A stretch of 42,514 nt of DNA from Roseibacillus sp. (GTDB lineage Bacteria; Verrucomicrobiota; Verrucomicrobiia; Verrucomicrobiales; Akkermansiaceae): positions 59,704 through 102,217 of the forward strand of contig NZAC01000007.1 of NCBI GenBank assembly GCA_002686085.1, in the 5' to 3' direction. The stretch's first letter is position 1. The number at the start of each line of letters is the position of its first letter. Both the position numbers and the translations under genes were made by a program. Of the stretch, positions 3,227 to 9,192 are shown piece after piece. The notes under the pieces were generated by a model. It saw only the letters and a list, made by a program, of their open reading frames with translations, was not told the origin of the DNA and did not search any database.

Positions 3227-6200
3227 CTAGTGGAAGTCATGACTTTGGGTTTCCAGTGAAAGCCCGAGAGGGAGATGTTCTACGGATGTCGTGTAAAGAG
3301 TATGAGAATCACCTTCTCCGACCTGCATTCTGCCGTGACAGAGGAGAAATTTTTCGGTGGTGATAACGAGGCGGTAATTCAGGAAAGTAGAACGAGGAAT
3401 AAAAAGGTTTGCAGTTCCCGTCTCGTCTTCAAGAGAGATGAAGCAGTGTCCTTTTGCGGTGCTGGGTCTTTGGCGGCAGATTACAAGTCCAACGCAGCTG
3501 ACATGCTGGCCGTGTGGTATGAATTTGAAATCGCGGGCTTTGGCGAGTGCAGAGGGGTTGATAGACGTGCTGTGGCTTCCTCTACGGGAAGGGCTTTCCG
3601 TGTTCTTGAATTCATGTGTCCAAGCTTCGCGTAGCAGAGCCATGGGGTGTGGCCCTGTAGTGTATCCCTGAGAATGGTAATCTGCGGTGAGTTTTTCCAA
3701 ATCATTCATGGGAAGAAGAGGGCAGTTCATTTCACGTGCTGCTGCTTCGGAGTTGTTTAAATGGAGATCGTTGCACCGGTTGAGAAGATCATCTTCTGGA
3801 AGAGTTTCTCCCTGCCAGAGGGCATCCCGGCGGTGAGCAACTCCTCGCAGGTCATCTAAAGATCCTGCGGCAGCAAGGAGGCGGCGTTCTTTTTTGTTGG
3901 GTTGAACACGACGGAGGAAATCAGCTAGATCAATGAACTGGTTGTGGGATCGGGTTTCCAGGAGCTCAGAGATGGTGGAGCTGGAGATGTTCTTAAGGTG
4001 TTGAAGGCCTAGTCTGAGAGTTTTGTCATCAACGACAGATGTTTCGAGAGAGGAGTGTATCACAGATACCGGTTTGATATTAATACCGCGTCGACGTGCA
4101 TCGTGTAAAAGGCTGGCGACTGGATAGAAGCCCATTGGCTGGTTGTTAAGGAGGCCGGCGAAGAACTCAGCAGAATGGTGAGTTTTCAGCCAGCAGGAAG
4201 CATAAGCGAGGAGAGCAAAGGAGATAGCGTGACTCTCGGGGAATCCATAAAGAGCGAAAGAGCTGATAGAGCGAATCACCTTCTCCTGAACTTCAGGATT
4301 TACGTGACGGTCGGACATGCGTGAACGTAATTTGTCCACGATGTTCTCCATTCGTTCATCCGAGCGCTTAAAAGCCATCGCACGTCGTAGTTCATCGGCT
4401 TCAGCTCCATCGAAGCCGGCGACGATCATAGCCATACGCAGAACTTGTTCCTGAAAGAGAGGAACTCCGAGGGTCCGTTCCAGAACCGGTTGGAAATCAG
4501 GGTGGATATAGTCGATGGGAGCACGGCCGTTTCGCCGGTTCAGGTAAGGGTGAACAAGTTCACCCACGATAGGTCCAGGGCGGATGAGAGCAATTTCGAC
4601 GACGAGGTCGTAAAACTCCCGGGGTTGCATGATCGGAAGAGTTGCCATTTGGGCCCGAGATTCGACTTGAAAAGTGCCAACGGTATCTGCACGGCAAAGC
4701 AGATCGAAGGTGGCAGTGTCATCATGGGGAATGTGCGCCAAATCAATGGATTTCCCCCTCTGGCGACAGATCCTAAGGCTGTCCTCCATGGCTGCGAGCA
4801 TGCCAAGACCAAGCAGGTCTACTTTGACAATCCCAAGCTCTTCGCAGTCATCCTTATCCCACTGTACGATAGTGCGGTTTGGCATGGACGCGGGTTGCAG
4901 AGGAACGATGGAGTCGAGTCCGGTGTCACAGATAATCATTCCCCCAGAGTGCTGCCCAAGATGTCGAGGGAATGATAAAATCTCGTGATAAAGGTGCATG
5001 AGAGGCCTGAAGCGGGGGTGATCCTGAGAGAGTCCCGATTGACTCAGGGTTTTTCTCAGTTGCCCGAGATCTCTCATGGGGAACATTTGGCCGTCTGGAA
5101 TTTCCTCTGCTTCAGGAGCTGTAGTGCACTTTTTACCAGCGTCTGGAGGAGGGTTGGTTCTATCGCCGGTAGTATCAGGCGAATGGGGCGAGGATATCAG
5201 AGACGAGAAACGTGTAGCGATTGAATCGGGGAGCCCAAGGACCTTTGATATTTCCCGAAATGCAGATTTTGGGCGATAGGTGATCACGTTAGCGGTCATC
5301 GCGGCTCCTCGTGGAGCGTATTTCTGAAACACGTGCTGTATGACCGCCTCACGTCGTTCTCCCGAAGGAAAGTCAATATCGATATCTGGCCACGACCGTC
5401 TATTTTCGGACAAGAATCGCTCAAAGAGGAGGCCGCCACCAACGGGATCGCAAGCTGTAATCCCCAGACAATAACACACCGCTGAGTTGGCAGCAGAGCC
5501 ACGACCCTGACAGAGTATTCCCTGAGACTTTGCAAATTCTACGATCTCCCAGACGATCAGGAAATACCCGGAAAATTGGAGACGAATGATCAAGGATAGC
5601 TCGTGCTCGAGTTGCTGGAGGACCTTTATTCCAATTTTGCCATAGCGGTCTCGCGCTCCACGAAAAGTCAGTTTTCGCAGAAGCCTGGCCTCCTCCTCGA
5701 GTGTCAGGCTTTTCCCGTTTTCATGGTAGGAGGGGAACTGGTATTCCAGGTCATCGAGGGTGAATGCGAGACGCTCAGACAAAATTTCAGTATTGATAAG
5801 AGCTTGCTGCTGATCGCCAAACAACGCGGACATCTGATCTGGAGATTTAAGATATCTCTCAGAATTCGAAGCGAGTAAGGTTCCTGCGTCATCCAGAGTC
5901 GTATGATGACGCAGGCATGTGAAGCAGTCTGCAAGTAGGCGGCATCGTCGATGAGAAAATAGAGGAGCATTGGATGCCAACAGAGGAATTTTGAGGGATT
6001 GAGCAAGGTCTATGAGCAGTCGGTTTATTCGATCGGTGCTTCTGTTGTGATGACGGGTGAGAGTGATGTAGACATTCTGCTTTCCGAAGGTTCGACCAAG
6101 CATCAGGGCGACCCTCAAAAGGGTTTTTCTGTCCAAAGAGGGCAAAGACTCAGGAGTCAGAAGCGCAATTATTCCTTCCGTGTGAGATGGAAAGAAAACA

Positions 6201-6556
6201 GAAGTCTCTGAATTATTGGATAATGCGTCTGGGGAAAATACTTCGGAACAACAATGTATCTCTGTCAGAAGATGGCACAGGTTCTGGTATCCTTTAGTGC
6301 TGTCGACCAGAACGGGTATTTCCAGAGGCGAACCTCCCGGGCATCTTCCCGGTAGCTCGACGGTCGCTCCTACGAGTGCACGAATCCCATGCCTTCGTGC
6401 GGCCAGATGAGCTTGGACGGATCCGTACACCCCCATGTGGTCCAGAATGGCAATGGATTTGTAGTTGAGTTCAGCTGCACGCTGAATGAGATCCTGTGGA
6501 TGGCTCGCGCCCCGAAGGAAGGAAAAAGAGGATCTCGCATAGAGTTCAGTAAACAA
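3227..6556 (-). CDS. dnaE2: Error-prone DNA polymerase DnaE2 (ImuC)
   Basis: C-family polymerase alpha subunit used for translesion synthesis in the damage-induced ImuA-ImuB-DnaE2 mutasome. The 1109-residue protein begins with a degenerate PHP domain (MFTELYARSSFSFLRGAS). The palm GRGSAANS motif is at 351-358 and the catalytic PDIDIDF motif at 390-396 (D391, D393). A third acidic motif is VKVDLLGL. The C-terminal OB-fold segment contains HCFISLEDETG. The start must be TTG at 6556, because the only upstream in-frame codons before a stop hold no start. A Pro/Ser/Thr-rich stretch of about 33 residues (456-488) separates palm motifs. It lies 54 bases after imuB and is clearly the last gene of that operon. 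Confidence 0.95.
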   Translation of the reverse strand: MFTELYARSSFSFLRGASHPQDLIQRAAELNYKSIAILDHMGVYGSVQAHLAARRHGIRALVGATVELPGRCPGGSPLEIPVLVDSTKGYQNLCHLLTEIHCCSEVFSPDALSNNSETSVFFPSHTEGIIALLTPESLPSLDRKTLLRVALMLGRTFGKQNVYITLTRHHNRSTDRINRLLIDLAQSLKIPLLASNAPLFSHRRCRLLADCFTCLRHHTTLDDAGTLLASNSERYLKSPDQMSALFGDQQQALINTEILSERLAFTLDDLEYQFPSYHENGKSLTLEEEARLLRKLTFRGARDRYGKIGIKVLQQLEHELSLIIRLQFSGYFLIVWEIVEFAKSQGILCQGRGSAANSAVCYCLGITACDPVGGGLLFERFLSENRRSWPDIDIDFPSGERREAVIQHVFQKYAPRGAAMTANVITYRPKSAFREISKVLGLPDSIATRFSSLISSPHSPDTTGDRTNPPPDAGKKCTTAPEAEEIPDGQMFPMRDLGQLRKTLSQSGLSQDHPRFRPLMHLYHEILSFPRHLGQHSGGMIICDTGLDSIVPLQPASMPNRTIVQWDKDDCEELGIVKVDLLGLGMLAAMEDSLRICRQRGKSIDLAHIPHDDTATFDLLCRADTVGTFQVESRAQMATLPIMQPREFYDLVVEIALIRPGPIVGELVHPYLNRRNGRAPIDYIHPDFQPVLERTLGVPLFQEQVLRMAMIVAGFDGAEADELRRAMAFKRSDERMENIVDKLRSRMSDRHVNPEVQEKVIRSISSFALYGFPESHAISFALLAYASCWLKTHHSAEFFAGLLNNQPMGFYPVASLLHDARRRGINIKPVSVIHSSLETSVVDDKTLRLGLQHLKNISSSTISELLETRSHNQFIDLADFLRRVQPNKKERRLLAAAGSLDDLRGVAHRRDALWQGETLPEDDLLNRCNDLHLNNSEAAAREMNCPLLPMNDLEKLTADYHSQGYTTGPHPMALLREAWTHEFKNTESPSRRGSHSTSINPSALAKARDFKFIPHGQHVSCVGLVICRQRPSTAKGHCFISLEDETGTANLFIPRSTFLNYRLVITTEKFLLCHGRMQVGEGDSHTLYTTSVEHLPLGLSLETQSHDFH

Positions 6557-6610: not shown

Positions 6611-8329
6611 TCATTGGTAAATGCCTTCAAGGACCCAGTTGTCGGGCGGGTGGTAGGCAATGCGCAGGAGTGCATTGCTGGTTAGTTGAATGTCCCACTC
6701 AACTTGCTGCCAGCGCTCCTCAGGATCCCACCAGTGTCCGGAGATAGGAAAAGGCCCGTTTGATTTCGTGACAGGCCCGCAGTATGGGCCGCTCAGTAGT
6801 GCAAGAGGTCTGGGAAAGCGGCCTTCCGGATCGGATGCAACATGAATGGGAAGTGTTGGTCTGAACCGGCTTAGCGGTAAGGATGTGCTGTTTTGAATAC
6901 GTCTGTAATGTGGTGATAAGGTGCATTCGTTTTGTTCTCTTTTAACGGCGAGCTTTTCGCTGCAAAGAGCACCTTTCATCTGGAAGGAATCGGGGCGGTG
7001 AGTATCGAGAAGGAACGGTGTTCCCAGACGCCCGGGTCCCAGAAGGGCATTGATTCGCCCAAGGGTATTCATGAATCTACGGGAGTTTTTGAGAGACCGC
7101 TTGAAAAGATGATATTGTTTTTCTTCGTGGCTGGCCGAGGTCAGGTGAAGAGACCAGCCAGTTGCTGGAGCTGGAGCATGAATCGTGCTCAAGTGAGTCT
7201 GGATAACCCTTAATAGCAGAGATGAGTCGCAGGTTGGTTCGGGAAGTTCGATTTTGTGCGCATACAGGTCTCCATCGTCAAACGTCAGAGTGATTCTAAG
7301 AGAAGAAGCGGCCCGCTGAGAGGATTGCAGCCGTGAGCAGAGGGTCCTTAAACCTCGGTGGAGAGCGAAGAGCAGTGGCTCCATCGTTTCGATAGGATAC
7401 TCAAGTTGCTGGCTGAGATTAAATCGTTCTGGAGGGCGGTGAAGCCGCAGTAGTCGGTGATGTTTTCCATGGAGAACGTCATGAGCTATCTTCGCTTCGG
7501 GGCCGAGTCTCTCTGCGAGGCCCTGCCGCGGCAGGCTGGCAAGCTGGCCCAGAGTTTCGATGCCCCAGAGTGAAAGAAGTTCCGCCTCCAGAGTAATCTC
7601 AGTTGATACGCAGTTAAGAGAGTGAACGGGTTGAGAGTCGATATGTTGAATTGCGAAAGTGGGGTGTTGTGCCATGCAGAAGATGGGATCTGCATTAAAT
7701 CGGAGAGTATGACGCAGGGCAGGAGATTGTCCTGCGAGAATGGAAAGGTCTGGAGTTCTGGCCAGAGCGACATCGAGGGGAAGGCGGAGGGGTGTGGCCT
7801 TACGCAGGGCCTGTTCGACCCATTCTCCCGGGAATTTCATGGCGTGTGGAATCGACATCAGGTCCAGGATAAAGACGCCCATAGCGGTCTCTTCAAAGTC
7901 AGATCCTAGAGAAGCGAGGTATTCACGAAGAGCATCCTGGTGCAGGCATTCGTCTGCAGGATTTGAGGAAATAAGATTAAGGTGAGGACAGCGTGCTAGG
8001 GCCTTGGTAGGGGAAAGTCCCTGGGTGACACGGCATCGAGCCGCCTCATGATTTACTGCAAGAATGACTGGTTTTGCAGTAGTAGAAGGGGTTGAGGTAT
8101 CTGAATCGGGTGCGCAGCAAACAAGGGCAACGGGTCCAGAAATAAGGTCCGGCCTATCCCGGAGAAGGATAGCTAGAGAGAACAGTGGAACTTGAAAAGA
8201 AGCGTACAATGGGAGAGCTTTTTTGGTGGATGAGCGAAGAGAGTAGAGGCGGGCAGCCTTTTTCTTTGCTTTAAGCGTGGACCTTCCCCGGAGTCTTTTC
8301 CGTTCAGGGGGAAGAAAGAATTTCCTCAC
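6611..8329 (-). CDS. imuB: ImuB, inactive Y-family polymerase homologue of the mutasome
   Basis: A scaffold protein that resembles Y-family polymerases but does not polymerise; it bridges DnaE2, ImuA and the beta clamp. Residues 40-70 hold the degenerate first polymerase motif (LPLYASFQVPLF), where active enzymes have a D-x-D metal site. The second is VFILDLMS. The middle contains the ImuB-typical QQLEYPIETMEPLLFAL, and the C-terminal ImuB domain has SGHWWDPEERW. The GTG start overlaps the imuA stop in GTGA, implying translational coupling. This start gives about 40 extra N-terminal residues, with 15 Lys/Arg in the first 37, that typical ImuB proteins lack. I did not find an unambiguous clamp-binding motif. 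Confidence 0.9.
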   Translation of the reverse strand: MRKFFLPPERKRLRGRSTLKAKKKAARLYSLRSSTKKALPLYASFQVPLFSLAILLRDRPDLISGPVALVCCAPDSDTSTPSTTAKPVILAVNHEAARCRVTQGLSPTKALARCPHLNLISSNPADECLHQDALREYLASLGSDFEETAMGVFILDLMSIPHAMKFPGEWVEQALRKATPLRLPLDVALARTPDLSILAGQSPALRHTLRFNADPIFCMAQHPTFAIQHIDSQPVHSLNCVSTEITLEAELLSLWGIETLGQLASLPRQGLAERLGPEAKIAHDVLHGKHHRLLRLHRPPERFNLSQQLEYPIETMEPLLFALHRGLRTLCSRLQSSQRAASSLRITLTFDDGDLYAHKIELPEPTCDSSLLLRVIQTHLSTIHAPAPATGWSLHLTSASHEEKQYHLFKRSLKNSRRFMNTLGRINALLGPGRLGTPFLLDTHRPDSFQMKGALCSEKLAVKREQNECTLSPHYRRIQNSTSLPLSRFRPTLPIHVASDPEGRFPRPLALLSGPYCGPVTKSNGPFPISGHWWDPEERWQQVEWDIQLTSNALLRIAYHPPDNWVLEGIYQ

Positions 8330-9021
8330 GCATTATGAAGAGCCATTTTCTGATGGGAGTAGGTAGGCTTCAGTTCATGACGATCTTTTTTCAGGGCGGA
8401 CAATGTAAAAGAGGAGTCCAGGCAAATTTGGAGCGCAGCGCAGGGAATGAGATGATGAGGTGTGAAGATGAGGACAGAGGTGTTAGCTCTCCGAGCTAGA
8501 TTACGTAAGCGATACCAGGATGACCTAGGGATGAGATGAAGTTCCTTCAGAGGAGTTAGCAGCAGGTCAAGAACAAGAAGTGGCAGGTTTTCGTCACGGA
8601 GAAGAAGGTCACAGCAGCGCAGAGACTCCTTGCTGTCATGACAGCGAATCCAGAGAAGGCGGGAGCATGAATCTGCATCGTAGGAACCGGGATCAAATGA
8701 GTTTCTCCCATCGATGAGTGCGATCGGATCGTCGAATAGAAGAGGTGAAGTGCAGGAGTCGTTCTTTTCGTGTGCGTGTTCAGAGTCTGCTCTTAGAATT
8801 TCTGCGAGAATAAGAGAGAGACCGGAGCATGGACTGGCAGGGGTTAATTCAGACAGGGCTCCGGATGGAAAAGGTGGAAGATGCGCGGAAGAGGAACTGG
8901 AGGAAGAAGGAGTTCTTACCTCGTGGGCCATGGGGAATTGCTCCCTCATCTGCTTGCGCAGAACGCTCAGTGAGGATGCCCTGCACGAGGTAATGCCGTT
9001 ATTAAGGGGAGGGCTATGCAT
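8326..9021 (-). CDS. imuA: ImuA, RecA/SulA-like accessory protein of the mutasome
   Basis: Partner of ImuB and DnaE2 in damage-induced mutagenesis. The body aligns by pattern with ImuA: a short helical LSVLRKQMREQF, a Ser-rich linker of seven consecutive serines, then a degenerate P-loop region PFPSGALSELTPASPCSGLS, and a hydrophobic LLVLDLLLTPLKEL strand pair later. The start is uncertain. The frame is open to a TTG at 9057, but the LexA-type box covers 9021-9034. I give the ATG at 9021, which itself touches the box. The ATG at 8931 has GAGGGAG 9 bases upstream and is a serious alternative. It is the first gene of the operon and overlaps imuB by 4 bases. Confidence 0.8.
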   Translation of the reverse strand: MHSPPLNNGITSCRASSLSVLRKQMREQFPMAHEVRTPSSSSSSSAHLPPFPSGALSELTPASPCSGLSLILAEILRADSEHAHEKNDSCTSPLLFDDPIALIDGRNSFDPGSYDADSCSRLLWIRCHDSKESLRCCDLLLRDENLPLLVLDLLLTPLKELHLIPRSSWYRLRNLARRANTSVLIFTPHHLIPCAALQICLDSSFTLSALKKDRHELKPTYSHQKMALHNA

Positions 9022-9034
9022 GTTCAAAAGAACA
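9021..9034. promoter_or_regulatory. LexA-type operator (TGTTC-N4-GAACA) of the imu operon
   Basis: A perfect 14-base palindrome, TGTTCAAAAGAACA, at the upstream edge of imuA. I recall TGTTC-N4-GAACA as the LexA motif reported for Verrucomicrobia. A TTGTCA -35-like hexamer lies on the minus strand at 9057-9052, 17 bases before the box, so bound LexA would sit where a -10 element is expected. No convincing -10 is visible. The divergent gene at 9229 is about 195 bases away and is less likely to be controlled by it. Confidence 0.8.
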
Positions 9035-9192
9035 CTACTATGAGAGCGGATTGACAAGTAGAAATCTTAAAATCCTAAATCGGGATGAGTTTTTCGAAGT
9101 TCGGTTTTTCCGTCAGCTTAGCCTTCACCTTTTTGACTAAGTGAATCGGAATGAGGTGTGGACTAACTGTGAATAAGTAAGAGCGCGTACCG

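Follow-up and report, generated by a model that had tools for sequence, protein, structure and literature searches.

A predicted LexA operator touching the proposed start codon of imuA at the head of an imuA-imuB-dnaE2 cassette in a Roseibacillus-like verrucomicrobial genome

The window, which is the whole stretch of 42,514 nucleotides analysed here (Roseibacillus sp., contig NZAC01000007.1), contains a cassette of three co-directional genes, including a Y-family and an error-prone C-family polymerase gene. The features of the cassette and of the region in front of it are as follows.

3227..6556, minus strand: dnaE2, error-prone DNA polymerase (PRK05672 above its cut-off)
6611..8329, minus strand: imuB, Y-family polymerase-like, with IMS domains (domain matches)
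8326..9021, minus strand: imuA homologue, 231 aa from ATG 9021, the best-supported start (start-codon comparison, alignment)
8920..8961, minus strand: codons of the conserved ImuA N-terminal motif, LRKQMREQFPMAHE, containing ATG 8949 and ATG 8931 (protein alignment)
9021..9034, minus strand: LexA-type operator TGTTC-TTTT-GAACA, a palindrome (sequence match, genome scan, cross-species comparison)
9032..9037, minus strand: TAGTGT, possible -10-like element over the first three operator bases (logo; inferred)
9052..9057, minus strand: TTGTCA, a conserved TTGnCA -35-like box that includes TTG 9057 (alignment of relatives)

The first-pass annotation had placed a palindrome at the head of imuA-imuB-dnaE2, and this gene assignment holds by the domain and profile matches and the ImuA alignment. 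The window protein had no match in the ImuA profile search, and its aligned relatives reach NF033429 below the cut-off (L088: 8e-6, 25.8 of 150 bits). The host genome comprises 3.95 Mb in 73 contigs. The closest named dnaE2 relatives are from Roseibacillus sp. and Akkermansiaceae MAGs (89-98% identity), which bears out the earlier assignment to the Verrucomicrobia. Another genome of the same genus (G010) has two imuB copies (C1 and C50) with 55% and 54% identity to the imuB of the window.

The palindrome was located on the plus strand at 9021-9034 as TGTTCAAAAGAACA and is read on the imuA strand as TGTTCTTTTGAACA; the imuA-strand context is tagtagTGTTCTTTTGAACAtgcatag, with the palindrome at 9034-9021. 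It is a perfect 14-base palindrome, as first described, and has zero mismatches to the Verrucomicrobia LexA operator TGTTC-N4-GAACA. This exact copy is the only one in the window, where 0.033 are expected from base composition. The palindrome had also been said to divide TTG 9057 from the first ATG. Those coordinates are right, but the separation from the ATG is not complete: the A at 9021 is both the last base of the operator and the first base of ATG 9021. A second in-frame TTG (9027) lies inside the palindrome.

The motif was then counted over the 3.95-Mb host genome. Seven exact copies were found, compared with 0 for the reversed control pattern. The exact sites are located before imuA, recA (gap of 63 bp), radC (21 bp upstream), comM/yifB and a DUF1501 gene, at the ATG of trkA, and after parC. 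For lexA, which is present as a single gene, a copy with one mismatch, TGTTCAAACAAACA, lies 12 bp upstream of the ATG. The proposed scan for the palindrome near SOS genes thus located it exactly before recA, radC and comM, and with one mismatch before lexA. As a class, one-mismatch sites are barely above background and mostly noise (96 versus 72 for the control), and extension of the regulon by a one-mismatch scan was dropped because it was too noisy. In front of recA (L011:5174-5195), three half-sites are arranged as GAACA-N2-TGTTC-N4-GAACA, and this arrangement is conserved in the genus.

Base composition alone predicts about three exact copies for a genome of this size, so the count leaves some room for a palindrome that arose by chance; the absence of the reversed control from the host genome speaks against this, as does the comparison between species. 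The exact motif was counted 206 times across 39 related genomes, compared with 25 for the control (rows summed). Among 68 verrucomicrobial dnaE2 loci, the exact motif was present within 3 kb upstream in 35, usually at imuA, and within 3 kb downstream in none. When 19 permuted half-sites were used as a control, each was found upstream of 0-1 dnaE2 loci. Similarly, when the half-site spacing at dnaE2 loci was varied, enrichment was found at 4 only, and all other spacings gave 0 or 1. The exact upstream site is missing in about half of the 68 loci, mostly distant ones. In some loci (L080, L082, L108, L111, and L114), the site lies 20-60 bp before dnaE2 itself, as would be the case if LexA controlled a separate promoter of dnaE2 in them.

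The operator arms are invariant, and the N4 center and the flanks diverge between relatives. In 33 non-redundant operators, the left flank is A/T-rich with A at -2 in 76%, and T is found at +1 in 67%. All 7 exact sites of the host recur at orthologous places in relatives, for example at recA (G004, G005), radC (G005), trkA (G002, G004, G005), the parC side (G004, G005, G021) and the DUF1501 gene (G001, G010). A chance origin of the trkA, parC-side and DUF1501 sites, considered on the strength of the three expected copies, was dropped because all of them are conserved in relatives. The palindrome in the window is likewise kept at orthologous places in dozens of species, where its arms stay constant and its center varies; this refutes chance, a reading of negligible probability.

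An inverted repeat might instead act in RNA, as a hairpin that attenuates transcription or masks a start site, and the repeat could form a 5-bp stem. However, its folding is no better than that of shuffled sequences (z -1.1), its position varies relative to the genes and overlaps promoter-like boxes, and the arms are invariant and do not covary. An RNA hairpin is therefore extremely improbable.

The host encodes a LexA of 204 aa that is the sole S24 peptidase-domain protein found in the genome. Both the DNA-binding domain and the S24 autopeptidase domain are present, and the AAG, GDSM, and TLKRY motifs, the counterparts of the cleavage site and the catalytic Ser/Lys, are retained. In most of the lexA relatives examined, an exact or one-mismatch site is present at the equivalent place; most of the genus keeps the one-mismatch form, and exact copies are found in several other genera. 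These data also bear on whether another palindrome-binding repressor uses the operator. Some sites at genes that are not classically counted as SOS genes (trkA, DUF1501, and a 49-aa ORF after parC) would fit such a repressor. Against it, the motif also precedes recA and lexA (one mismatch here, exact in several relatives), no S24 repressor other than LexA was found in the genome, and the motif equals the one reportedly bound by LexA in Verrucomicrobia. Another repressor is thus very unlikely. The sequence evidence makes it very probable that the palindrome is the LexA (SOS repressor) operator of imuA-imuB-dnaE2, and the sites before recA, radC, comM, and, with one mismatch, lexA support this earlier reading.

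One of the exact operators of the host straddles the ATG of a two-domain TrkA protein (L014:4982-4995, G000:C66), whose gene does not count among the classical SOS genes; the site is kept in eight relatives with protein identities as low as about 70%. The exact operator of the DUF1501 gene lies about 95 bp upstream (L016:6192-6205, G000:C49) and is conserved in G001 and G010 despite differing flanks. A family relative (G021) has an exact operator only a few bases upstream of an ssb-like gene (L231:3020).

The start codon of imuA was examined by comparison. An in-frame stop is located at 9069, the ORF is open from TTG 9057, and the in-frame starts are TTG 9057, TTG 9027, ATG 9021, ATG 8949 and ATG 8931. 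The sequence LRxQLREKFPxAH is common to 12 aligned ImuA proteins, in which L21, R22, L25, R26, F29, and P30 vary little or not at all (column numbers follow the window protein read from 9021). ATG 8949 and ATG 8931 are internal Met codons because they lie inside this motif. A start at 8931 (M31) was rejected since it would remove part of the conserved block, and the equivalent codon in relatives is GTG or ATA; a start at 8949 (M25) was rejected likewise. The long TTG start at 9057 is very unlikely. This TTG belongs to the conserved TTGnCA box, which lies 17 bases before the operator here and, as TTGCCA, 19 bases before it in relatives, and the TTG is out of frame in relatives because of this difference of 2 bases. 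The earlier doubt about the long start is thereby strengthened.

The close group retains the ATG abutting the operator. So do G004 and G005, in which an in-frame TAG within the operator is followed directly by AAC-ATG. In counts summed from six close relatives, which are not independent, the segment from the TTG to the ATG has 8, 6, and 1 changes at codon positions 1, 2, and 3, and the first 20 codons past ATG 9021 have 19, 14, and 38. The segment 5' of ATG 9021 is not coding-like, as it lacks a third-codon-position excess. No Shine-Dalgarno sequence was found before ATG 9021, whereas 8931 has GGGAG, which speaks against 9021. Taken together, the comparison supports ATG 9021 as the probable translation start of ImuA. 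Of the two starts favored in the first-pass annotation, the comparison supports 9021 and refutes 8931, which would cut the LRxQLREKFPxAH motif. The imuA genes of L079 and L027 (G002) have no ATG, GTG or TTG after the in-frame stop and ahead of the conserved motif, which points to either an assembly error or a start codon of a rare type.

The position of the -10-like element is occupied by TA[C/G]TGT in many relatives. The promoter boxes of imuA are weakly inferred, since a consensus promoter scan at the imuA site did not find a sigma-70 promoter. The overlap between the end of the operator and the A of the ATG points to an mRNA leader that is very short or missing; for a transcript from the -10-like element overlapping the left arm, this leader would tentatively measure only some 4 nt. 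In the proposed mechanism, a LexA dimer would bind the two TGTTC half-sites and cover the promoter and the transcription start of imuA-imuB-dnaE2, blocking RNA polymerase directly and keeping the error-prone translesion cassette off. Upon DNA damage, RecA filaments would trigger LexA self-cleavage and the operon would be expressed, with ImuA translated from ATG 9021, probably on an mRNA with a few-base leader or none.

After parC, an unannotated and conserved ORF for a basic protein of 49 aa was observed (L015:7004-7153, minus strand, equal to G000:C37:7153-7004; operator 7147-7160). Its ATG lies inside an exact LexA-type operator, at operator base 8. A promoter-like box, TTGACA-N16-TATGGT, whose last T is operator base 1, is present there in most genus members and is the clearest parallel to the overlap of operator, promoter and ATG proposed for imuA. 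A protein profile identified homologues in 12 other genomes, 11 belonging to the genus plus G021 from outside it, and two additional weak homologues in another genus (G039 and G051). The operator with the ATG at base 8 is also present in G003, G006, G009, and G012, which were not used to build the profile. In G039 and G051, TGAACA-N2-TGTTCA is found upstream of the small ORF instead of the exact operator; the same arrangement also overlaps the recA operator of the host. The 49-aa protein has no Pfam or NCBIfam match above noise, and the third-codon-position excess of its ORF is moderate (11 vs 8 and 4; 17 vs 9 and 5). We propose, with slightly less than even confidence, that several LexA operators are fused to start codons (imuA, trkA, and the 49-aa ORF) in this verrucomicrobial family, so that LexA, RNA polymerase and ribosome starts would share one site and SOS mRNAs would be leaderless or nearly so, and that one of these operators drives a conserved 49-aa basic SOS protein after parE-parC.

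The comparison provides firm evidence for a predicted SOS control of the mutagenesis cassette in uncultured marine Verrucomicrobia, and the imuA start is fixed by comparison. It also yields a short list of unexpected predicted SOS targets: a TrkA-type protein, a DUF1501 protein, and a 49-aa basic protein beside the topoisomerase IV genes.

The LexA motif of Verrucomicrobia is reportedly TGTTC-N4-GAACA, a finding attributed to Erill, Campoy, Kilic and Barbe in 2016 (Front Mol Biosci 3:33) and said to have been tested at recA and a mutagenesis cassette of Verrucomicrobium spinosum. The host described here has the same 14-bp palindrome as that motif but belongs to another genus (a Roseibacillus-like MAG); its operator abuts the imuA ATG, and it also has sites at trkA, the DUF1501 gene, and the 49-aa ORF. 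PMC8565304 and PMC7739468 both cite the Verrucomicrobia LexA-motif paper of Erill et al. (2016). A literature search for LexA-controlled cassettes and leaderless SOS genes returned nothing bearing on the imuA site. In other phyla, for example Bacteroidetes, the same imuA-imuB-dnaE2 set is under predicted LexA control (PMC8565304), whereas the operator is apparently different, as TGTTC is absent from the text of that paper. The motif itself is thus already known in the phylum; here it abuts a start codon, and it also marks a conserved 49-aa protein.
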